A stretch of 64,000 nucleotides of DNA from Siderastrea radians. Lineage: Eukaryota > Cnidaria > Anthozoa > Scleractinia > Rhizangiidae. The stretch covers positions 15,208,071 through 15,272,070 of the forward strand of contig OZ024892.1 in NCBI GenBank assembly GCA_964017195.1, written 5' to 3'. A program made the translations under genes and the position numbers. This document shows, piece after piece, positions 18,521 through 52,690 of this stretch; the first letter of the stretch is position 1; every line of letters begins with the position of its first letter. Below the pieces are notes generated by a model. It saw nothing but the letters and a program-made list of their open reading frames with translations. It searched no databases and was not told the DNA's origin.

Positions 18521-19260
18521 CTTGCGAAAACAGTACCTTCCTGTCGTACGGTTTATTATGCTGACCATTCAAAACTCGTTCAAACGGAAAGCTATTGAGC
18601 AGTACTTTCCTGTGATGCTGTTTATTATGCTGTACAAGGTGGTTCTACCTTTTGAGTCTGTAAATGAAATCCTACAATGTGACCATTCAATGAAAGTTAC
18701 TGAGCAGTACTTTCCTGTGGTACTGTTTATTATGCTGTACGAGGTGGTTCTAACTTTTGAGTCTGTGGATGAAATCCCTTAGTGTGACCATTCAAATGAA
18801 AGCTACTGAGCAGTACTTTCCTGCGATGCTGTTTATTATGCTGTACGAGGTGGTTCTAACATTTGAGTCTGTGGATGAAATCCTAAAGTGTGACCATTCA
18901 AATGAAAGCTACTGAGCAGTACTTTCCTGTGATGCTGTTTATTATGCTGTACAAGGTGATTCTAAATTTTGATTCTGTAAATGAAATCCTACAATGTGAC
19001 CATTCAAATGAAAGCTATTGAGCAGTTCTTTCCTGTGGTGTTGTTTATTATGCTGTACAAGATGGTTCTAACTTTTGAGTCTGTGGATGAAATCCTAAAG
19101 AGTGGCCATTCAAATGAAAGATATTTAGCAGTACTATACAGTGGTGCTGTTTATTATGCCGTACAAGGTGGTTCTCGCTTTCGAGTCTGTGGATGAAATT
19201 CTTATGTGTAGCCATTTGAACTGAAAGCCATTGAGAGCTACTGTCATGGTACTGTTTTTC
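18521..19260. repeat. ~105-bp tandem repeat array (about 7 copies)
   Basis: The unit contains GAGCAGTACTTTCCTGTG, CTGTTTATTATGCTGTACAA and GAGTCTGTGGATGAAATCC, followed by GACCATTCAAATGAAAGC. Copies begin roughly every 105 bp from about 18590, preceded by a truncated copy and followed by more divergent ones. Because 105 is divisible by 3, the array reads as a repeated peptide in open frames (18522-18782), but these frames are broken by stops elsewhere and are not judged to be genes. Degenerate copies occur at about 20050-20140, and two inverted copies lie near 55740-55910. Confidence 0.88.
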
Positions 19261-34112: not shown

Positions 34113-34636
34113 TACAGTACAGCCCAAAAATAATGCACGCGCAAGAACTTCTTTTTGCGTCCGCAAGCCGGGAACTTCTTGCGGCTACTTGCGGGACGCT
34201 TGCACTTGAATACTGCAAGCCGCAAGAACTTCTTTGCGTTTAGAAGTTAAAACCGCAAGAACTTCTTTATGGTAAGATGTCCGGACCGCAAGTAAGCACA
34301 AGAACTTCTTTGCGCTAACATCTTAAAAACCCGGAACCCGGAGAAGGTAAAAAAGAGACCACTTTGTAGTGCAACGCACGTTCGAAATCGGCTGCCTTTG
34401 CAGCTTGCAATCAGTTGTTTATTTGGTCGCTTGTAAGTTTTTTTTCTTCGGTTTAGAATTTTTATCTGATAAAGAGTTCACTAGGTTCTGAATTTGACGC
34501 TGGTCGCCTAGGCTAGGGAGAAACGAGACTCAAACGAAGCACGCGTATGTTATTGTTTATTATGTGTTCCGGAGTCCCAGACATGCGGTACGTACTATGG
34601 TGCCCATTAAGGGCCATGGTATATGCTACTTTATTT

Positions 34637-35149
34637 GAACTGGCGATTCGCCACTTTGAACTGGCGATTCGCCACTTTGAACTGGCGACCGCCACTTTGA
34701 ACTGGCGATCGCCACTTTGAAATGGCGATCGCCACTTTGAACTGGCGATTCGCCACTTTGAACTGGCGATTCGCCACTTTGAACTGGCGACCGCCACTTT
34801 GAACTGGCGATCGCCACTTTGAACTGGCGATTCGCCACTTTGAACTGGCGATTCGCCACTTTGAACTGGCGACCGCCACTTTGAACTGGCGACCGCCACT
34901 TTGAACTGGCGATTCGCCACTTTGAACTGGCGATTCGCCACTTTGAACTGGCGATTCGCCACTTTGAACTGGCGATCGCTACTTTGAACTGACGATCTCC
35001 ACTTTGAACTGACAATTCGCTACTTTGAACTGGCGGTCTCCACTTTGAACTGACAATTCGCCACTTTGAACTGGTGATCGCCACTTTGAACCGGCGATGG
35101 GCCACCTTAACTGGCGATTGGCCACTTTGAACTGGCGATTCGCCACTTT
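34637..35149. repeat. Left subterminal array, ~25 units of 20/21 bp
   Basis: The unit is GAACTGGCGATTCGCCACTTT, alternating with GAACTGGCGATCGCCACTTT and GAACTGGCGACCGCCACTTT. The core GGCGA-(TT/T/C)-CGCC is palindromic; the variable spacer makes units 20 or 21 bp. Units are nearly identical on the outer side and more diverged on the inner side (from about 34975). It ends 60 bp before the transposase ATG. Confidence 0.97.
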
Positions 35150-35209
35150 CATAGCAGTCTCTACCGAGGGCTCTGGGTACGAGACAACTGCCGGCTCATT
35201 ACGAACAAT

Positions 35210-36481
35210 ATGGCTGCTTTCGCTTATTCATTGTTTTTCTTCCTGGCTATCTGTTTCTGTTTATCTCCGTGCACAGCAGTTTTACACGCGTATATTCCAG
35301 TAGTTCAGCAAAACGTTGGCCAGAGAGATGAGCTCATTGCAACCTATTTTCACCTTGGCTTTAATTATGTTGAAATTTTATCATTTTTGACGCTGAGCCA
35401 TGGAATACGCTTGAGCCTTCGACAGTTGAAAAGAATACTAAGAAATCAAGGTTTATTTCGACGAAGAAATTACAGCAACCCACAGGAGATCATAAGTGCA
35501 GTTGAAAGGGAACTTCGTGGAAGTGGAAGTTCCATTGGTTACCGATTAATGCACCAGCGACTCAGAAATGATTACGGACTTGTTGTTGATAAGGAGACCG
35601 TGCGCCTAACACTGAAAACCTTGGATCCTGAAGGTGTTGAGAGAAGATCTAAACAGCGACTGAAACGAAGAAAGTACTCTGCTAAAGGACCGAATTACAT
35701 CTGGCATATAGACGGATACGATAAACTCAAACCTTTTGGGTTTTGTATTCATGGGGCAATAGACGGCTATAGTCGCCGTGTTTTGTGGCTTGAAGCCAAC
35801 GTGACTAACAGTGACCCTAGAGTTATTGCGCAGTACTATTGCGACTGCATAAAACAAGTGCGAGGAGCTCCGAGGATTGTGCGTGCAGATCCAGGTACAG
35901 AAAACTGCAATGTTGCAGGAATCCAATGCTTTTTTAGACGGAATGGCTCTGATTCTTTCGCCGGCGAAAAGAGCTTTATGTATGGACGTTCAGTATCCAA
36001 TCAAAGGATAGAAGCTTGGTGGTCTTTCTTTCGCAAAACTGATTCTGATTGGTGGATCAAGCTTTTCAAGGACATTAGAGATGCGGGTATATATTGTGAC
36101 AGCAATCCTATTCATGTGGAATGCCTGAAATTCTGTTTCATGGAGTTAATCCAAGACGAACTCAAAAGAGTTGCAGAACATTGGAATCTTCACAGGATTA
36201 GGCCATGTACGAATTCCAACTCCCCAGCAGGACGCCCGGATGTTCTTTATTTTCTTCCTGAACTGGAAGAAACCATGGATTTCTCCATTCCCGTACCAAG
36301 TCATGAGATGGACTTAGCAATAGAGGAAGGCTGTGACTACGACATTGAGCAGCCAGCGTTGGGAGATTTCGTGGAGTTAGCACACCTAATCATGGATGAA
36401 GAGGGTCTCACAATGCCAGATGACGCAGAGGAGGCATTAAGCTTATATATAGATCTCGTATTCCATATTGAAAACATCTAA
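35210..36481 (+). CDS. DDE integrase-like transposase (423 aa), apparently intact
   Basis: A single uninterrupted exon. Residues about 36-85 contain a helix-turn-helix-like region (RDELIATYFHLGFN, LSLRQLKRILRNQGLF). The integrase core spans about 160-280 with the triad D168 (WHIDGYDKL), D227 (VRADPGTEN) and E268 (NQRIEAWW). A conserved tail block follows (LHRIRP, then AGRPDVLYFLPE at about 328-352), with an acidic C-terminus. It resembles integrase-core proteins seen in many copies in cnidarian and fish genomes; I suspect IS3EU. It would cut and join the transposon ends in the nucleus. Oddly, residues 1-30 are strongly hydrophobic, like a signal peptide (SLFFFLAICFCLSPC), which does not suit a nuclear enzyme; a downstream start or an unseen 5' exon is possible. 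The start chosen (ACAATATGG) is the first ATG in frame, 60 bp after the left array. Confidence 0.9.
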   Translation: MAAFAYSLFFFLAICFCLSPCTAVLHAYIPVVQQNVGQRDELIATYFHLGFNYVEILSFLTLSHGIRLSLRQLKRILRNQGLFRRRNYSNPQEIISAVERELRGSGSSIGYRLMHQRLRNDYGLVVDKETVRLTLKTLDPEGVERRSKQRLKRRKYSAKGPNYIWHIDGYDKLKPFGFCIHGAIDGYSRRVLWLEANVTNSDPRVIAQYYCDCIKQVRGAPRIVRADPGTENCNVAGIQCFFRRNGSDSFAGEKSFMYGRSVSNQRIEAWWSFFRKTDSDWWIKLFKDIRDAGIYCDSNPIHVECLKFCFMELIQDELKRVAEHWNLHRIRPCTNSNSPAGRPDVLYFLPELEETMDFSIPVPSHEMDLAIEEGCDYDIEQPALGDFVELAHLIMDEEGLTMPDDAEEALSLYIDLVFHIENI

Positions 36482-38308
36482 TAACTGATTAATCTGTAAA
36501 AAGAAAACAAGCTTTTTTAAACACGGCGTGGTTTGAATTGTTATTTAGAGATAGAGGCGTTTTCAAACACCGTTTTTATTACGAACAAGAAACAAGTTCA
36601 CATGATTTTAAAAAATGTAGCGTTATTTGGTTCATGTTCTGCTCGTTCCGTTGGATTGCCTTTGTCGTGAAATAGGACTGTAGAGAACAATGCTTCATTC
36701 TGGAATTAAAAGAAACTTCATTTTGTATATTTGGGGAGCACGAAATGTATTTTGAGTTTGGTTTGCTATATCTCAAGACCGTTCTATTCATTTTAAATCT
36801 CAAATACCTTCAATCTAAAGCACTCTAGAAGGGAAATTCTCGTAGTGGGGGAAGGGAGGAAGAAGAAGAAATTCTTCCCATATACATGTACCCTTGTCTG
36901 TAGGGATTTGCTTGGGGGCGCCTCGCATGGGTCTGCAAGTGCCGTTCACATTCCACACTTTTGGTTCTTTTCCCCGTTATTTCATATTTATTCCACTTAT
37001 TGCACTCGTCTAATTAAAGTTGTTAAAAGCTTGCGGGCTGCTAACTTCAGGGTGTAAAAATTGGACTGTGGAGTGTAAATTGTGAACTCCCCCTTCCTCC
37101 GACTTCCAACAATAAACTTTAGTACCGAGGGATCCGGAACTAGTCTGTCAACTGTGGTTTTGTGGACTGTGATGCGTTCATTGCGAATCACTGTTATGCG
37201 TTCACTGCGTTCACTGTGAAGTGCAACCCGGTGTGGACTGTTCCATATTTAGAGGCACCCTAACCTTGTGTTTATTCGGGATTGTCTGAGAGGATTGGGA
37301 CAAACGCAACGGTTGTGGAGCCCTCGTCGCTCCTTGTTATCCGATGAAACCGGAAGTGTTCTGAAATTAAGTGGAGTGAGTCAGCCCAAGGCAGTCAAGA
37401 TACCTGCCTTCTGGATGCTTAGCACAAAATATCTCGCAGTCTGGTAAATCATTCAACTATTTTCTTGGTTGGAAAAAAGGAATAGATCGACTAGAAATGA
37501 TCCCCTTCTTTTCTTTACCAGTGTCTTGATTTAGGGTGATTTTGCAGTTTTCCTACCAAAAGGGTTACCCTAAGTTAAGCATTTTAACCTAAAAAAAATC
37601 CCAAGGCGAAATCACACGTTTATGTTTTTCACTACCAACAGTTCCATCTTCGTTAAGATGTTTATTGTCTTTTATAAACATAAACAGTACTACATTATAA
37701 TGCTTGTACTCTTTACAAGGCTACATGAAAATAGGAAATGTCATCCTTTCTTAGCTAATCACACATTTTAGTAACCCTTCTTTTATTTCCAACAACACAA
37801 AATAACGATACCAGATGACCGCGAAACCTTAAATTTCACTCCTAACGGCTGTGGTCTAGTACTGGTTAATCTGGAGATGGCGAGAACAGCTCAGGCGTTC
37901 CCTTAGACAGGTAATTCAAACATTAAATGACCTAACAGAAATAAGAACAATAATTAAGAATCTGAAAAATTAACAATGCCTAAAAATGAACTTTTTTAAC
38001 CACTTGCTCAATGTGTTCAGAGTTTAATAGCAAGTAGAAAGAGGAACTCTTTCAAATTTCTGCCCAACGGATAACTAATCATCGACAGCCTTTGCATGAA
38101 GTTAATGTTACGTATAGATAGTTGGAGGCAGTTGATTTTACAAAGCAAATGTCCCACACAACGTAGCCAAGGATAATCCTAGAAACAAACACAACCTTTT
38201 AAAGTGATACTGCTTTAGTTTAATTCCCTTTACCGGAAAACGTTTTAACGTCAAGACAACTGAAGCAGTATCAGTGCGCCCTTTACAAGTCTACATCGGT
38301 GCCGCGAT
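36482..38308. other. Transposon interior between the two convergent genes
   Basis: Presumably contains the 3' ends of both transcripts. The part at about 37060-37400 is less AT-rich, with repeated TGTGGACTGT and GCGTTCACTG words, and may be an inserted fragment of another repeat. No ORF was recognised. Confidence 0.5.
38206..38272. repeat. Inverted repeat in the 3' flank of the HECT gene
   Basis: GATACTGCTTTAGTT and its reverse complement, with one mismatch, surround a 37-bp spacer. It is probably a tiny MITE or a structured 3' UTR element. Confidence 0.7.
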
Positions 38309-41300
38309 TTAAGCAGAGTGCATTTCGAATGCCTCGTCACTGAAAAGCACATTAGTAAATTCCTTTTTGAATTCACTCAAAGTTGAATAGCATACTGAAA
38401 TAATCAAGCATTTTGAGCAAGTTTGGGCTTTAGGAGTGCGTGCAAGACCTTCAGCTCGATTAAAGCAGACATTAATTGGACATAGAGACGCAGATGGTCT
38501 CCCAGTGACGAAACGTAGGAACCTTTGCAAGAGTTCTTGGTCCATGTTGGCCAAGAAATCTTTAAGATAGTAAAATGCAACTTCTTCTTCTGGTTTGAGA
38601 ACACCTTCTGTATGAAGACTCTCCAACACCCTCGGTATGGTCGGCTTCAGTGCCTCATATAAGCTGTCGAAATCTGATTGATTTAACTGGGACCACAGGT
38701 CTTCCATCTGATTCTTGGGGATCCCTTCCACCATCCACTGTAAGATACACAGAGGTCTCAGGACAAAAATGAATCGGGCGAGTTTAACAAGCTGATCTCT
38801 TAGGCGCTCTCCCAAAACAGGGGCAATCCTCATTTCAAATCTTGCAAATACAGAGAACAAGATATCCTCTTGCTCATCTGTGACGTCTTCTTTACCAGCT
38901 GCAGACATGACAATTGACATCACTTTCGCCTCCCTTTCGCTAACGTGGTTGAACAGGTCTCTTAAAAGGACGGGTTCTGGGACTCTCTGTGATCCTAAGA
39001 ATGCTCCCATAACGCTTGACTGACAAAATTGCACTGGGATGGCACCCGTGAGAATAAAGCCGTGTGAGAAGATTTTACCCATCGCCTCAAAGGTACTTTG
39101 TGACCCGTGCAAATTCGATGGCGATGCGAAAGGAACCTTGACTTCCTCCCCGTCGAAATACATGTCTAATGCTTGTTCCCAAAAGGCTGAGAAGAGGTCC
39201 TGGGTAAGGCCACCGAAGTCTTCGCCTTGTTCGTCTGTAAATGTAACTTTTATGGTAGAGGATGCCACGTCGTCTTTGCTATAGTATCTCAAAAGGTCTG
39301 CAAGCACATGGCGTCGAGAAACTTTGATTGGTTCGTCACTAGCCAGTTCAGAATAAAGTTTCTGACGTAAATCTGAAAAAATAGAGATAGAGAAAAGAGT
39401 AAACAATTTTATTTCTGAGTCGAGGTATTTAGCTTCTGGTTTGCGACTAGCAGTTAAACATTTCTTCTCGGGAAGAAAACACTTTCAAGGAAACAATTCA
39501 TATAAACGGACGGGCTTTTTTTAAGGGGGGGGGCTGTTTTCGTTTGCTTGTTGTCTCACTTCCTTTTGAGGCTTTATTGGCCTCTTAATGGTCTTCCTCC
39601 ACTCTTCCGGCTCAACGTCGAGGAGTGTGAATTTTTTCAAAGAGTAAATAGGTGGGAAAGAAAAGGAAATAAAATTTGTCCTACGAATTGGTGTTAACGA
39701 TTATGACGCTACAAGTGATACAAGGACCTTTAACTCCTCTGGGCCATTTTTAGCATGTAGGAGTCAACGACTTATTACATTCTAACCACTCATATACCTT
39801 CCATCTTGCGGCTGGGAAGCTCATGTGTTGGGGGAGTCATTAGGCTTGCTCTCCACTGTCTTGCACGCTGCCATTATGAAAAACACAAAGAGGTAAACAC
39901 GTTGAAATATCCACTGTATTATATAAAAGCATGAAATTATAATGATGGGTAGAATGCAAAGTTCTTTCGGAGACAAATGGCACTTAAATAATCTAAGTGG
40001 TTTACCGTTAGAGCTATGTTTCCGACAAAAAAGGAGGGTTGGTTTCTTTTCGTTTCTTTTTTTGTCCTTTTTTTCACTTTTACTTATTCTTACTGGTTAA
40101 AAAAGCAAGAAGAAGACGCCATGACAGAGGAATGTTTCAAGGAGATGTGAGAAAACACCTGAGCTTTGTTTAGTGGACTGAAAAGAACAGCAACATTCTA
40201 ATAAATTAAAGGAGCTGTGTCACGAAATTTAGCCAAATTCAGCCATTAGGTCTTGGCCTCCAAATTGAGCGAGGCATAAAAACAACACCTTAAAACATTG
40301 ACGAAAGGTTTAAATAACACAGCAAACACAAAAGAAGGCACGGATGGGCCAAATTAAAGATGATTAACACGGATTGTAATTGGGGTTTTTGAAAAACTGT
40401 TAGGCTGAACACTTTTCAAAGTTTATCTCTGTTGTTTGTGAATCTAAATGTAACGCTCGGGATACATATTTGTTTGTCACGTTAAGCAGTGATTTTGTCA
40501 TTGACAAGTAATTTCTTCGCTAACGTTAGTTTTCATAGCAAGTAAGGGCGAGTAGTTGAAGAACTAAACAAATTGGACTGGACTGCCGTGACACAGCCCC
40601 TTTAAGGTATGCCATTAAATCGTCCAAAGAAAGACACTGCTACAACCTGTATATATTTCAAGTATTTAAACAAAATAGTTCCTTATGGTATTGCTCCAAC
40701 AGATTATTTTATCAGATGGTGAGTGGGCAACCCCAAATTATGTGATTGAAATTAGGGTAAAAGGCCATAAATATCTAGTAAGTGTTGAAAGAAACACCTG
40801 TATTCCTTCGTTTGAAGTTGTGAACTGCAGTTTATTGCACCATAATTACATACCTCTTCCAGAGACACCTGTTGTCCTGAGAATGAGTTGTCAGAGTCAG
40901 AATGCTCCCTTTCAGAGTCACTAAAAGACACAATGATGACAGGCTGAGTGAAAGTGAAGGGGACCTAAATGCTAAAAAATAAGAATGCCTGATTTCATCA
41001 CTTGGTTTGTCCTATTAGACCTTAACCAGGGGTCAATTTAATAAAACATTTACAAGTGCAATTTACAAGTACTGCTATTGTCTCAGAGGTTGAAAACAAT
41101 GGCTACACTTGTAAATGTTTTATTAAATTGGCTCCAGTTACAAAAGCATAATTCCAAGCTTCAGTTACAACTATAAGGAAATAAGATCGGAATTGAGCTG
41201 TCCTCGTGTAACATGTCCAAGCTTACTGACAATATTTACTACCAATTAAATTATATGTCAAACATATCTCCAGGTTTAATCTAAATAGATCATTTCTAAG

Positions 41301-44300
41301 TCACTTATATCAACATTATTATAAATTTACTACCCCCAAATCCTCCAATAATGAGCTTGACTGCAGCAAAATGACCATCCCAATTGTAAGAAAGTTACAT
41401 GACATGAACACAAAATTGTCATTAAGTGGGTAAAGATTTGTTAAGAGTTCCCTATTTATTTTTACCTTCTTATTTGAGAATTATTAATTATTATGCATAC
41501 ATGTAGGTCCTGTAAAATCTAAAAGGAAATTACAGACCTAACAAGATGCACAATGTATATATAGATATAGATGCAGAGTCAAGGAACAAATGAAGAACAT
41601 AACCAGTTACCTTGAGTCCGATACCATCATAAAGTTTGACGGTGGCTTGTCTTGGACTTCAAAAAGTGCCACAGGAGAGGCTGGTAAATCTTCTGTCCTT
41701 CCACCGTCTTGCTTTCCAGAAACTGCAAAGCCTTTAAATGTCACCTCCGGATCATCACTTATGGCAACTGGTTGGCTGCGCTCCACTGCATGTACAAGTC
41801 TGTGCTCCATTACAGTCACAGAGTCAGTTGGAGGGATGTACTCATTTTGGTCTTCAAAATAAAGTACAAACCATGGCATCGGCTGCAACCTGCCCACCCA
41901 ATCATAAACCGCGATTGCTTTCTCTTCCTTTGTGAATTTCCTAGTATGTAGCTGCTTGGCATGATCCTCAAATGTAACAATGACAGCAGATTCATCACCT
42001 GCCCCATGGGGAACGTTTACTGGCTTGCCTGTTTCTAGTCTGGAAGGTGCCTTGATTTCTTTGTCTTTCTCACTGTTGTCATCTGAAAATGTTGCTTTCA
42101 TCAAATCCTCTTCTCCACTGTCATCCCCAGATGATGATGTCCTTGGTCTCTTTATTTCACCAACTGGATCCTTTAGCATTGACATCAAATAGAGTCTTGC
42201 CTTCTTCAGTTTGGTGGCTTCAAAGTATCTTGCCAAAGTGAAGTCCTTTGTAGAGCCATCTGCATAGGTGATGTCAGATATTTTTTCACACCTGAAGTTT
42301 CCTAAGTCAAACTCCATGTGTTCAGCAGCTCCAAATTTGGAAGATCCTCCCACAAAGAACATTCCAGTGGCGTAGTCAATAATGTCCTCTTTTGCGCTGT
42401 CATGGGGGAGTTCGACATCACGTGTCCCACCCCCATCTGGTGTTCGCACCATGACGTACTTTCCCTTTTCAGCACGAAAATGTAGCCAACCAAGTATGAA
42501 TTTCCTTGTTTTAATTTTACCTTCAACAGCCTTAGAACTGGAACCAAGAAGAGAAATTTTCTTCCTACGTTTGTTGAGTAACTGCTGCAGTAACTTGTTC
42601 CTCAGTGGCTCCTTTTCCACGACTGACTTGCAGTTGATTTTCTTCTCACAAAAAGCCTTCAAGGCATATAAATCGCCTTTTGCTGTTAGGCCGAATAATT
42701 CTTGCAATGCAGTATCACTTGCATACATCACAGCCACACCATCCATCTGCAAAAAACAGTAAGTACAAGTGCTCAGCAAAAATACAGTAGGCTACTAAAA
42801 GTAAGTGGAAGAAAGAAGACCAAAAGCTCAAACATCTTACAACAACAACAACAACAATAATAATAATAATATTAACAATAATTAACATGTTTACAACAAT
42901 AATAGAAAATTTTTGTTCTCCATATCCCCACATTTACAGCTAAAACCAAGTACACCATGAGAGGTAGTACAATATATCTGCAGTAAGACAGATCTTGAGG
43001 GATTCCTTTGAACACATAAGTTGCCTGCCAACGCAACCTCCCACTTCTCACCCCCAAACCAAATATATAGATATGGCCAATTTCAATTTGCTGGTGTGTG
43101 GACTAGAAAATCTTAGCTTGTTACACAACACATGTGCAGCATTCCATTTTATTGACAATAAAACTTCACATAAGAAACATCTGCAACCAAGCACTTTTTA
43201 ATTGTAGAGGAAAAAGATATCCTGAAAACATATGTTCAAATTTCCTTTCCCGACAGATAATGTATTTCTCCAAACAATGCAAATATTTTGAAAATTAACA
43301 GCTGCAAATAAACTAAGTCTAATTTGTGTATTGAAAGATTTGCTATATTGGATTTCAATGTGCAAATATTTGTGTTTTCATACTAGCTTTTGCATCTGTA
43401 AATTGCAAACTCTTCAGCTATGGAAATTTCCAAGGAATTCCACAACAAAGTGTCTTATGGAGAATGTGACACAATAGCTTTAGTGTGCCATTCCAAGCAA
43501 ACAAAACATGTAATCTTTCAACCAAATAATCACAAATACGTTTACCACTTCAGCTAAAGCCTCTCAACAATCTGTGAGGGAAAGGGGTGTGATATGATAC
43601 CAGACGACTTCAATTGAAGGGTCCCATGGAAAAAGGACGTGAGTGACAATTTGGCCAAAAGTCAAATTAACCCAACTTAGCTCTACTTTGGCATGAAGGA
43701 TGCAAGAAACAAGGTTCCTTCTTATTTCTTTTCCTGAAAGCTGAAGAATTGCATGTAGCCTATTATTTTTTTACTAATACTGAAATTATTTAACCTATGC
43801 ATGAGTGATTTCTATTTTTTCAATTTAAACAGAGAACAAAAAAATCACGTATGCATTGGTTGAATAAGTTCAGGTTTAGCAAGGAGTAATAAGCTAATAA
43901 TATTATTCTTCGAATTAAAGCTTTCTGAGGAAGAAAAAAACATGGAAATCCTGCCCATGGCATTCTTTTTTTTAGCGACTGTAAAGCAAGTGAACATAGG
44001 CACTAGAACTTCTGTCTTCTTGGAATTCAAATTGAAGTTTTTTCTAGTCACTGCCCATGACCATGAAATATTCTTGAAGTGTTATTTACAGTATGTACAG
44101 TTTTGTATTTTTAGGTAAATTATAATACAAAAAGAGATGGTCAAATGATTTTGTAAAAACTGGATACACCAAAATGTGGTTAATGCTTAAGCACTGTTGG
44201 ATTGATAACTACTTCAGCAAAATATATTGTGTCGATGAAGCTTCTCTATACCTTCTCCTGGAGAAAAGTATCAATAACACTCTTATCGACGCCTCTCGTT

Positions 44301-44888
44301 GCAAGGAATTCGCAAACCTGGTGGAAGTAAAATAGTAGTGATGAGAACGGGTACTTGCATTGTGTATAGGAATGATATTAAAACAGAAATACTGCAAACT
44401 TAAGAAATGACTTGTAAATCATTTTAAAATAAAATAATAAGCTTACTTCTCGAGCTTAACGACCTTTATAGCTTTTTTATGTCTAGAACGTAAAGCATTA
44501 AGTTAAACTGTGCCTCTGATATAGGCCTCAGTTGGAATATGCCTCTGTAGTTTGCATGCTATCCCTACACAGTTTAATCGTGTACATTTATGCAAACTGG
44601 TTACTATGCTGTTTAAAATTGTTAAAATTGTTAAAATGCTAACATGCACTTTTCCTTTATACAGATGGAGAGTGAGTTTCCAAAACAACCTAGTCCCGTC
44701 TCAGCGCGACTCGGGAACCTTGTATCCAACTGAGTTTGCGATTCTTTCGGAGAGATGACACCGATAGGTCTCGAGATAAGTATTTTTAAACTGCATTCAA
44801 GAATAAATTTAACGAGACATACCTCATCCACGGTCACAGTTGCAGAGGTCGACGACGAACCTGAAGCTGATGACTCCTTCGACGCCAT
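38309..44888 (-). CDS. Transposon-borne SAM / UBX-like / HECT E3 ubiquitin ligase, six exons (~825 aa)
   Basis: Exons inferred from splice sites: 44888-44823, 44317-44252, 42746-41625, 40943-40854, 39867-39798 and 39372-38309. All acceptors end AG and all donors start GT (GTATGT, GTATAG, GTATCG, GTATGT, GTATAT); phases are 0,0,0,0,1 and the frame is open to TAA at 38309. Residues about 22-80 look like a SAM domain split over exons 1-3 (VCEFLATRGVDKSVI; LQELFGLTAKGDLYALK). Residues about 120-235 form an unnamed region with a GGGTR motif. Residues about 298-368 resemble a UBX/ubiquitin fold (TRKF, AVYDWVGRLQPMPWFVLYF). About 472-825 is the HECT domain, with the predicted thioester Cys790 in AQTCSKC. 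HECT enzymes transfer ubiquitin via this Cys. The ATG lies 62 bp from the right array, mirroring the transposase. The exon 3 donor is the weakest call: an alternative at 41610 would break the phase. Confidence 0.85.
40210..40601. mobile_element. piggyBac-like MITE in intron 4 of the HECT gene
   Basis: Ends AGGAGCTGTGTCACG and, inverted, AGGGGCTGTGTCACG, both flanked by TTAA (40206-40209 and 40602-40605). 392 bp, non-coding. It lies between exons 4 and 5, so it does not disrupt the coding sequence. Confidence 0.85.
41029..41134. mobile_element. ~106-bp hairpin MITE in intron 3 of the HECT gene
   Basis: GG(G/A)G(T/C)CAATTTAATAAAAC at both ends as inverted repeats, continuing through CATTTACAAGTG. 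No clear target duplication. Confidence 0.75.
42841..42871. repeat. AAC/AAT microsatellite
   Basis: (AAC)n passing into (AAT)n, about 31 bp, in intron 2 of the HECT gene. Confidence 0.9.
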
Positions 44889-44950
44889 GATTCAAACTGC
44901 GCCAGCAATAACCGCTGTCAGCAGCATATTCGAATAGTTCCAGTCCCCTA

Positions 44951-45543
44951 TTCAAATCGCCAGTTCGAAGTGGCGAAATCGCCAGTTCAAAGTGGCGATC
45001 ACCAGTTTAAAGTGGCGAATCGCCAGTTCAAAGTGGCGAATCGCCAGTTCAGAGTGGCGAATCGCCAGTTCAGAGTGTCGATCGCCTGTTCAAAGTGTCG
45101 ATCGCCAGTTCAAAGTGGCGCATCGCCAGTTCAAAGTGGCGAATCGCCAGTTCAAAGTGGCGAATCGCCATTTCAAAGTGGCGATCGCCAGTTCAAAGTG
45201 GCGGATCGCCATTTCAAAGTGGCGATCGCCAGTTCAAAGTGGCGGTCGCCAGTTCAGAGTGGCGAATCGCCATTTCAAAGTGGCGAATCGCCAGTTCAAA
45301 GTGGCGAATCGCCATTTCAAAGTGGCGATCGCCAGTTCAAAGTGGCGGTCGCCAGTTCAAAGTGGCGAATCGCCAGTTCAGAGTGGCGAATCGCCAGTTC
45401 AGTGTTGATCGCCTGTTCAAAGTGTCGATCGCCAGTTCAAAGTGGCGAATCGCCAGTTCAAAGTGGCGAATCGCCAATTCAAAGTGGCGATCGCCAGTTC
45501 AAAGTGGCGAATCAACAGTTTAAAGTGGCGATCGCCAGTTCAA
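44951..45543. repeat. Right subterminal array, ~29 units of 20/21 bp
   Basis: The inverted counterpart of the left array; the unit is GCCAGTTCAAAGTGGCGAATC with GATCGCC and GGTCGCC variants. It carries its own variants (CCATTTCAAAG, CAGTTCAGAG, GTGTCG) and differs in unit order and number from the left array. It begins 62 bp from the HECT gene ATG. Confidence 0.97.
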
Positions 45544-45588
45544 ATAAAGTAGCATATACCATGGCCCTTAATGGGCACCGTAGGTACG

Positions 45589-46237
45589 CTTAGCGGCGCG
45601 AAAGATTTCGCTCGATTTATTTCACTTAAATAAGGAACAACGGCAAAGCACAGTCCATCAGTCACATTATTAATGAACCGACATTCACCTGTTCAAAAGT
45701 CTTCATTGGAAAAACACATTATGTTTGTAAAAATAGTTCCATTCATTACGCTGAAGTCGATATCACATTTTAAAACTTCGAAGTAAACCAAAGAAGTCTG
45801 AAGGAAACTAAAATTCCGCGATCTGAAAGAAATTCGACACGTCAATTCTAACCTGAGTAAACACAAATCTGCCGTATGCAAATTTAGTACGATTTGCATG
45901 AATGACATTTTGTAACGCAATGCATGAGCAGTTCTCTAAGCCGTCAAAACAGCAAGCCCCAGGCAGCAAGCTGTGTCGAAAGGCGAATGTGTAGTTGAAA
46001 TCATATGTTTATGCTATTTCTTCGAGTATTCCTTTTTTGCTGGGAAATTAAAGTGGTAAAGATGCAGGGATTCTTGACGAGTTCACCCACGAGATGGCAT
46101 GACTTCCTGCACGTGAAAGTCTTGTCTTGTCTTGCCTGTCAAAGAAGAGTTCGCGCAGTTTGCCACAATTATAGCTTTTGGACTTTTTTGTTTCTATTTC
46201 TTTGATGGAATAAAAAACTGAATTGAGTCAGTTCTGA
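45589..46237. other. Outer-element sequence between inner insertions, no gene recognised
   Basis: Sequence between the 11-kb transposon and the 2.4-kb element. No motif was recognised in the open frames. Confidence 0.45.
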
Positions 46238-46715
46238 CTATGGCGTTCCGTTACGGCCAAAATCTTCAAGTGACAAAATAAACAAAATGAAACGTGTACA
46301 AACATTATTCTTAAAAGGGTCAGAAAATAAATCGAACCTCATGCAAATAAGTCCAACTTGCCCAAATATAAATCGAACCGCGCAAAAATAAATCGATCCG
46401 CCAAAAAGTAAATCAAACGCCTCAAAAATGAATCGAACCAAGCGCAAATGAATTCAACTTGCACAAATCGCAATCGAACCAGCGAAAAGTGTATCGAACT
46501 GTGCAAACAGGAACGAAACAGCTCACATAAATGTCGAATCGAACTGCACAAAAATAAATTGAAAGAAGGTCAGCGGTGAAACATGCTACCGGAAGTGCTT
46601 TAAAAGCGAAAGCAAGAGTCCAGCATCCGGGACTGTCAATATGCTTTGCGCGGGAATCGGCAGGTCGGTTTGGCAAAATGGCAGAAAGATTCAGTCGCCC
46701 TCTCGACGCCCTCAA

Positions 46716-48138: not shown

Positions 48139-49078
48139 AACAACAACAATAATGCTGGCGGTGAGAAATGCTCTACTCCATATACTGGGTATGCTTAGTC
48201 AAGTACTTCCGGTGCAACTATACTTCCGGTTCCGCTGACCTTCTTTCGATTTATTTTTGTGCAGTTCGATTGATATGTGCGGTTTTGACGTTTATGTGAG
48301 CGGTTTCGTTCCTGTTTGCACAGTTCGATCCATTTTTCGCTGGTTCGATTGCGATTTGTGCAAGTTGAATTCATCTGTGTTTGGTTCGATTTATTTTTGA
48401 GGTGTTTAATTCACTTTTTGGCGGATCGATTTCTTTTTGCGCGGTTCGATTTATATTTGTGCCAGAAGGATTTATTTGCACGAGTTTCGATTTATATTTG
48501 CGCGGTTCGATAGACTTTTTGCTGTTTTGACTTTATGTAAACGACTTTCGTTTTTAGTTTTGACCGTTTAATAATGTTTGTACGCGTTTCATTTTGTTTA
48601 TTTTGTGACTTGAAGATTTTGGCCGTAACGGAACGCCATACTTCTGAGTTGAACCCGTATTACCGTATCAGACACGCGTAAAAAAAATGTTCATGTTTTC
48701 TCATGTACCGGAGATCATGTTTACCGGTTGTTTTATCTTGCAGTCGGAAAGCTGGCGGATATTCCATTTCGTGACGTAAATTTTCTTCGATACTTCGGTT
48801 GTTCGAACATTTGCTTCCTTGAGTTTTTGATTAGACTTGCGAACTTTCGCTTGACTTGGCGAATTGTCGCGCCAACGCGGCGAAAAATCGCTCGAAAGCT
48901 CGGCGATATTTCAAAGAGAATAGAGCGCGACATTCTCTCTCATTACTTTTGCAAATTACCTCACACTAACACGAGCACTACAAATTTCTTCGGCTGGACC
49001 CGCAGTACTTCTTGCGCCTTCTTGGGGCTTGCGGTAACATTAGTAACTTCTTGCGGCTTCTTGCGGCTAGATTTTCAA

Positions 49079-51240: not shown

Positions 51241-52690
51241 TCGAATGTGGGGATATTTGATAATGCCATACTGTTCTACAACTCCTAAGTGCAAGTATTT
51301 TTCCAACAGCAACAGAAACACTAGGTGGCACGCCCGTGATTCTGTGAGTTAGAACGTTGTGACATTATGAAACTTCCTGCATATTTTACCAGGTTGAATC
51401 CAACTGTAATAGGTTTTTAAGGGGCAGGGGGAATTGGGGGACGCAAAATTTGGCTATTTGAGTGTGGGGATATTTGATAATGCCATGATGTTCTACTAAA
51501 CTCCTAAGTGCAACAACTGCAACAGAAACACTTAGGTGGCACGCCCGTGATTCTGTGAGTTAGACCGTTATGGCATTATGAAACTTCCTGCATATATTGG
51601 GGTGTATCCAACTGTAATAGGTTTTTTAAGGAAAACTTTGGTTGTTTGAGTGTGGGAATATTTGATAATGCCATGATTTTCTACTAAACTCCTAAGTGCA
51701 ACAACTGCAACAGAAACACTTAGGTGGCACGCCCGTGATTCTGTGAGTTAGAACGTTATGGCATTGTGAAACCTCCTGCATATATTGGGGTGTATCCAAT
51801 TGTAATAGGTTTTTTTAAGGGGCAGGGGGAATTGGGGGGGGGGGGACGCAAAATTTGGTTGTTTGAGTGTGGAGATATTTGATAATGCCACGATTTTCTG
51901 CTAAACTCCTAAGTGCAACAAGTGCAACAGAAACACTTAGGTGGTACGCCCGTGATTCTGTGAGTTAGAACGTTATGGCATTATGAAACTTCCTGCATAT
52001 ATTGGGGTGTATCCAGCTGTTATAGCTTTTTTAAGGTAAAGTTTGGTTGTTTGAGTGCGGGAATAGTTGATAATGCCATGATTTTCTACTAAACTCCTAA
52101 GTGCAACAACTGCAACAGAAACACTTAGGTGGCACGCCCGTGATTCTGTGAGTTAGAACGTTATGGCATTGTGAAACCTCCTGCATATATTGGGGTGTAT
52201 CCAATTGTAATAGGTTTTTTAAAGGGGCAGGGGGAATTGGGGGGGGGGACGCAAAATTTGGTTGTTTGAGTGTGGAGATATTTGATAATGCCATGATTTT
52301 CTGCTAAACTCCTAAGTGCAACAAGTGCAACAGAAACACTTAGGTGGCACGCCCGTGATTCTGTGAGTTAGAACGTTATGGCATTATGAAACTTCCTGCA
52401 TATGTTACCGGGTTGTATCCAACTGTAGTAGGTCTTTAAGGGGTAGGGGGAATTGGGGGACGCAAAATTTGGTTGTTTGAGTGTGGGGATATTTGATAAT
52501 ACCATGATTTTCTACTAAACTCCTAAGTGCAACAACTGCAACAGAAACACTCAGGTGGCACGTCCGTGATTCTCTGAGTTAGAACGTTATGGCGTTATTA
52601 AAATTTCCTGCACATTTTATCGGGAAGTATCCAACTGTAATATGCTTTCTTCAGAGGAGTGGGGAAAAATTGGGGGGAGGGGCATATAAT
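51241..52690. repeat. Tandem array of alternating ~183-bp and ~203-225-bp units
   Basis: Seven units share TTGATAATGCCA, CTCCTAAGTGCAACAACTGC, CACTTAGGTGGCACG and GTGATTCTGTGAGTTAGA. Units alternate in part between a long form with a G-rich block (GGCAGGGGGAATTGGGG) and a short form without it; the last units are more diverged. Each unit contains the 8-bp stem CCTAAGTG...CACTTAGG. Confidence 0.93.

Follow-up and report, generated by a model that had tools for sequence, protein, structure and literature searches.

The window analysed here, a stretch of 64,000 nucleotides from Siderastrea radians contig OZ024892.1, contains a complete transposon of 10,990 bp (window 34593-45582) in which a gene for an integrase-like DDE transposase and a gene whose predicted product is a HECT-type E3 ubiquitin ligase are convergent (face-to-face). 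The element is flanked by an exact target-site duplication, GGTACG, read directly at 34587..34592 on the left and 45583..45588 on the right, as an earlier note made from these letters had stated. The left terminal inverted repeat (34593..34647, plus strand) reads TACTATGGTGCCC..., with the TA..TA end of IS3EU transposons, and the right one (45531..45582, minus strand) reads TACGGTGCCC... on the minus strand. The tips, described in the earlier note as identical over about 49 bp, are identical in inverted orientation over 49 bp (34599-34647 and 45531-45579), but their outermost bases differ by 3 (TACTATGGTG on the left, TACGGTG on the right); a 31-bp core of the inverted tip was matched twice in the window versus 0 times in 100 shuffles. 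The long inverted arrays that had been noticed were recovered by repeat search as a left subterminal array (34634..35149), a predicted transposase-binding region in which a 21-bp unit is repeated about 25 times, and a right one of about 29 copies (44955..45544), inverted relative to the left.

The two flanks were joined with one copy of GGTACG (144 bases) and searched against the source genome (804.8 Mb), and this empty site, with its single copy of the duplication, was matched without interruption at 40 or more other places. For this search 40 of 570 candidates were scored, and all 40 places listed match, 39 along their full length and the other starting at base 2, with 19 at 100% identity and the remainder at 99%. 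The element has thus inserted precisely within one copy of a repeat that is abundant in the genome. The insertion target (34520-34592 plus 45589-45659) is itself a repeat with at least 40 near-identical empty copies.

The transposase (35210..36481, plus strand, 423 amino acids (aa)) is an uninterrupted open frame, as had been claimed, with an integrase core matched by Pfam rva_4 (E 2.3e-33) and the residues D168, D227 and E268; the Pfam rve match is weak (E 0.0037). One HHCC pattern was tried on residues 1-165 and gave no match, and a sequence search of the PDB with the transposase also gave none. Candidate viral relatives in IMG/VR contigs (9 pattern matches) were rejected, none being confirmed. 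The N-terminus is hydrophobic and resembles a signal peptide (window 35210-35290), a secretory-type start that is odd for a transposase. A hydrophobic stretch lies within the first 65 residues in 92 of 115 full-length relatives, and a comparable 15-mer beyond residue 100 was found in only 3 of the 115. It is missing from L046 and from the four more distant transposases whose beginning could be read (L078, L079, L080 and L082). A mistaken intron is not favoured as its explanation, since the seven loci displayed have no 3′ splice AG in common at the boundary of the stretch.

The ligase gene is on the minus strand and consists of six exons, namely exon 1 with the ATG (44823..44888), exon 2 (44252..44317), exon 3 (41611..42746), exon 4 (40854..40920), exon 5 (39798..39867) and exon 6 (38309..39372), the last encoding the HECT domain, with the catalytic cysteine in TCSKC, and the stop. 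GT-AG boundaries are present at all five introns and the 822-aa product has no internal stop, in agreement with the phase-consistent gene proposed earlier. The SAM/UBX-like/HECT architecture suggested for it was confirmed by Pfam for HECT, the one domain above the cut-off (E 3.6e-6), but not for SAM or UBX-like; the calls of a SAM-like stretch, a conserved middle domain and a UBX-like stretch in exon 3 come from cross-family conservation, joined for the SAM-like and UBX-like calls by the weak similarity of one homologue to FAS-associated factor 1 (E 0.019). The order SAM-like, middle, UBX-like, HECT is common to the window protein, the ligase of a second element family (family A) and an intronless 773-aa ligase (locus L093, 3180-5498), with per-domain identities of 21-45% among the three. 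This intronless ligase adjoins a fragmented, convergent and possibly intron-bearing transposase, and HECT frames of 773-816 aa resembling it recur in the genome search with the HECT exon.

An AlphaFold2 (AF2) model of exon 6 had a predicted local distance difference test score (pLDDT) of 81.8, and its top PDB matches by Foldseek were HECT domains, the best being that of HUWE1 (E 3.0e-9, template modelling score (TM-score) 0.64). All 20 of the ligases aligned retain the catalytic cysteine of the C-lobe. By fold and cysteine the product is a predicted E3 ubiquitin ligase of the HECT type, and it would be an active one. For exon 3, a sequence search of the PDB gave no match, and the single-sequence fold was uninformative (pLDDT 31). 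A fold search of viral proteins gave 8 matches at E ≤ 0.001, with 9-13% identity, among them 4 named HECT and 3 uncharacterised giant-virus proteins.

The tips were searched in the source genome, and tip-bounded copies with both genes were found in three families: three in the window family, six in family A and four plus one compound copy in family C. Two more complete pairs of window-family tips, one on C8 spanning about 10.5 kb and one on C7 spanning about 12.2 kb, enclose both genes. The C8 copy is flanked by an exact CGATCT duplication, and the C7 copy has no exact duplication at its TA..TA ends; in both, the six exons and splice sites are kept and the transposases are open, with 18 nt absent in frame from the C8 copy. 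Family A, whose transposase is 56% identical to that of the window, comprises eight gene pairs, six of them in tip-bounded copies of 9.3-10.2 kb and two with one tip found, and ten further tip pairs spaced 0.5-0.8 kb apart. Of the 10 family A copies checked, 6 (3 of 6 long, 3 of 4 short) are bordered by exact 6-bp duplications, no two alike, and all 10 end in TACGG..CCGTA. In family C, four tip pairs enclose matches to both genes, truncated or interrupted in three. Tips also occur on short derivatives without either gene, as in other DNA transposons. The refuting result named in the earlier note, tips always lacking these genes, was thus not encountered. Its proposal that the ligase belongs to the transposon as a second gene is supported by other copies in which the tips are the same, the 6-bp duplications differ and the two genes keep one layout. 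Two unusual relatives were seen as well: the family C compound copy of 16.6 kb, in which two opposed transposase/HECT sets lie within one tip pair (C14:11296005-11312640, L022 and L023), and a degenerate relative with opposed subterminal arrays about 45 kb apart, in which transposase remnants alone were found (C6:43360523-43406109, L013-L017).

The pairing holds across the genome. With independent transposase and HECT-exon queries, 36 of 103 transposase matches had HECT within 10 kb, all 36 convergently, versus 0.29 expected; this test is free of any choice of queries from paired loci. With Pfam searches added, 93 of 249 merged loci were paired, 92 of them convergently. After two more ligase queries were added, a HECT match lay within 10 kb at 136 of the 249 transposase loci, a count that may be inflated since these queries were taken from paired loci; in 135 of the 136 the genes are convergent, the HECT match lying downstream of the transposase and on the opposite strand. 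On large contigs the paired fraction was 125/226, versus a circular-shift mean of 1.68 and maximum of 11 (1000 shuffles). The candidates scored were 99 of 1049 (sequence query) and 150 of 1034 (Pfam) for the transposase, and 113 of 170, 129 of 291, 112 of 217 and 117 of 245 in the four ligase searches. Among the 37 closest transposases, 33 are paired. The sole exception in orientation (C8:23115009-23117699) has both genes on the same strand with HECT upstream of the transposase. At least one HECT locus counted as unpaired, L093, does adjoin a convergent transposase, the fragmented one mentioned above. Seen from the ligase side, 135 of the 264 HECT-like loci scored in the genome are paired with a transposase, so that the suggestion that multi-copy HECT genes stem from such elements stands for about half of these loci. 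If it is true, a multi-copy HECT set is explained which annotation would otherwise score as a host expansion.

In a protein database, 1417 relatives of the transposase and 16 of exon 6 were found. The organisms named among the relatives listed (for the transposase, the best 120 of 1417) are Acropora palmata, Acropora cervicornis and Exaiptasia diaphana, and since these are all anthozoan, an anthozoan host is likely. A transposase (P0003, 73% identity) and a HECT protein (P0131, 60% over 57% of the query) share one value for the longest contig, 1,324,420, and so suggest a pair in another genome. Of the 7994 candidates scored against the full-length ligase, none reached E 0.001, a result that probably reflects the lack of predictions for spliced genes in this database.

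Purifying selection on both genes is shown by one well-resolved pair, F78 and L87, in which the ratio of nonsynonymous to synonymous substitution rates (dN/dS) was 0.100 for the transposase (325 codons) and 0.102 for the ligase (287 codons). Among window-family copies, changes were too few for dN/dS.

Co-divergence of the two genes was expected and was ruled out by identities, trees and topology tests. The transposases of F78 and family C are 26% identical and their ligases 50%, and between the window and family D the values are 62% and 22%, respectively. In trees of 20 transposase/ligase pairs, two ligase clades (support 100/99 and 100/100) combine members of both deep groups of the transposase tree, and B and L27, which are sisters by transposase (100/100), differ in the clade of their ligases; the L92 ligase forms a long branch. 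In approximately unbiased (AU) tests, for which the groups were drawn from the other gene's tree and chosen after both trees were known, the HECT data rejected a 7-row transposase clade (p 1.0e-5) and the pair of B and L27 (2.0e-8), and the transposase data rejected the two ligase clades (6.0e-58 and 7.7e-40) and the grouping of A with B (8.2e-5). Five ligase types, covering 17 of the 20 rows, take 7 changes on the transposase tree, where 4 would be sufficient, and the distances of the two genes are uncorrelated over 7 families (Spearman 0.03; 2284 of 5040 permutations as high). Because the two trees conflict, ligases have apparently been exchanged between element families while their slot was kept; the alternative is that related ligases were captured independently instead of being exchanged.

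The reading preferred here, to which a probability of about 0.5 is assigned, is that an IS3EU-type transposon carries a predicted ligase which ubiquitinates a host protein, whereby the element would escape repression or complete transposition. The target would be a host factor, since a ligase that can be re-partnered among transposases of 22-26% identity probably does not depend on the cognate one. The effect may be anti-silencing, by analogy with the TET/JBP gene on fungal IS3EU elements, which has also been passed between transposon lineages (PMC12730594). A more extended version, in which the ligase is an exchangeable mobile module of IS3EU-type transposons, swapped within a fixed slot, directed against a host factor of defence or silencing and giving rise to about half of this genome's HECT-like genes, is put forward tentatively, at somewhat less than an even chance.

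Alternatively, the ligase might act on its own transposase or on the complex left after strand transfer, limiting the dose or marking the complex for extraction, perhaps via the UBX-like stretch and p97. Stable complexes left by integrase-type transposases can need remodelling, as with MuA and ClpX, the UBX-like stretch is conserved and is where the homologue weakly matches FAS-associated factor 1, and convergence in 135 of 136 pairs would suit mutual regulation. This is nonetheless rather unlikely: related ligases adjoin very divergent transposases, unexpected for a dedicated pair, the gene distances do not correlate, and no p97-binding motif was seen by eye in the UBX-like stretch. The version of the earlier note in which the ligase controls its own transposase appears weakened by such discordant partnering. 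Less probable again is a ligase that adjusts host proteins of DNA repair or checkpoint control where the element excises and inserts; such a role has been proposed for the OTU and Ulp1 domains on Ginger1 (PMC2836005), and a host repair target is also compatible with the exchange of partners, but nothing in the sequence indicates a repair factor.

Several points weigh against the preferred reading of a ligase directed at a host protein. The ligase frame is open in the window alone among the three complete window-family copies, those on C7 and C8 being broken, and no ligase was detected at 113 of the 249 transposase loci, including 4 of the 37 closest, where it may be dispensable or may have been missed. 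The structural match is to the overall fold, and its TM-scores are modest. As for selection, the pair of L46 and L85 is too young (dN/dS 0.44 and 0.54), and silent sites are saturated in L90/L91, L88/L89 and L27/L46. The argument for a host target is indirect, as exchange would equally suit a ligase that recognises something shared by these transposases or by DDE complexes in general. The broken frames and the four closest transposases without a detected ligase are likewise what would be expected if the HECT gene were carried along neutrally or were a host gene situated beside a transposase by chance. Such an account is contradicted by pairing far above the null in one orientation and by dN/dS of 0.10, and chance neighbours were rejected by the circular-shift null together with the tip-bounded copies that hold both genes; with the catalytic cysteine also kept throughout, it is left with very little probability.

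Elsewhere in the window, two arrays of units of about 20 bp (..AAATCGAACC.. and its inverse) lie 1.9 kb apart at 46362-46499 and 48383-48511 and are styled like the subterminal arrays of another element. Two further stretches, 18579-19235 and 51304-52642, hold tandem repeats of 106 bp (6.2 copies) and of 188-405 bp.

Among known transposons, the Polinton/Maverick class is 15-20 kb long and carries a DNA polymerase and several further genes; it was ruled out by the length of 10,990 bp and by gene content, no open frame above 128 aa being found in 36450-44950 beyond the two genes and the array frames, although no dedicated polymerase search was made. IS3EU elements have TA..TA termini, duplications usually of 6 bp and an integrase-like DDE core without HHCC (PMC10045372). 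The present termini are TAC...GTA in the window and of TAYGG type in other families, the 6-bp duplications are those given above, with the empty site, and the core is that of rva_4 with its D, D and E residues and no match to the one HHCC pattern. By termini, duplication and core, the element fits IS3EU. IS3EU and GingerRoot are alike in these three respects; the HECT ligase gene sets the present element apart, none being given in the parts of their published descriptions consulted. Nor was a HECT gene on a DNA transposon found in the open-licence PMC literature as far as it was covered, and a Repbase description is possible. A 2012 meeting report speaks of fungal IS3EU-derived elements that have five to six proteins and, more generally, of DNA transposons bearing proteins of host origin (PMC3520738), and in its text as searched the string 'hect' is matched solely inside 'trophectoderm'; a HECT protein is described from mimivirus (PMC6027436).

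Host HECT ligases (HUWE1, the NEDD4 family, TOM1) share the fold and the catalytic cysteine; in contrast, the present protein is encoded inside a transposon, is 13-18% identical to them in the best 50 Foldseek rows listed, and has an N-terminal part without a sequence match to a solved structure. A parallel in gene content is offered by fungal IS3EU elements carrying TET/JBP and alpha-kinase genes, in which an IS3EU transposon likewise bears host-type enzyme genes and the transposase and alpha-kinase genes are oppositely oriented (PMC12730594); theirs are a DNA-modifying enzyme and a kinase in fungi, whereas here a predicted ubiquitin ligase is carried and the few named relatives are anthozoan. 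With more than 100 convergent pairs, conflicting trees and purifying selection, the role of the ubiquitin pathway in transposition becomes testable with natural variants. Links between this pathway and transposons are known from a RING ligase on RAG1 (PMC4411706) and from deubiquitinating and SUMO-protease domains (PMC2836005). In RAG1 a ubiquitin ligase is linked to a transposon-derived recombinase, but it is a RING fused to RAG1 and missing from TransibSU, the transposase belongs to another superfamily and there is no HECT in the account given (PMC4411706). In Ginger1 with OTU or Ulp1, an integrase-related transposon carries a ubiquitin- or SUMO-pathway domain, as here; those proteases are fused to the transposase and would remove modifiers (PMC2836005), whereas the present element has a separate ligase gene whose product would add them.

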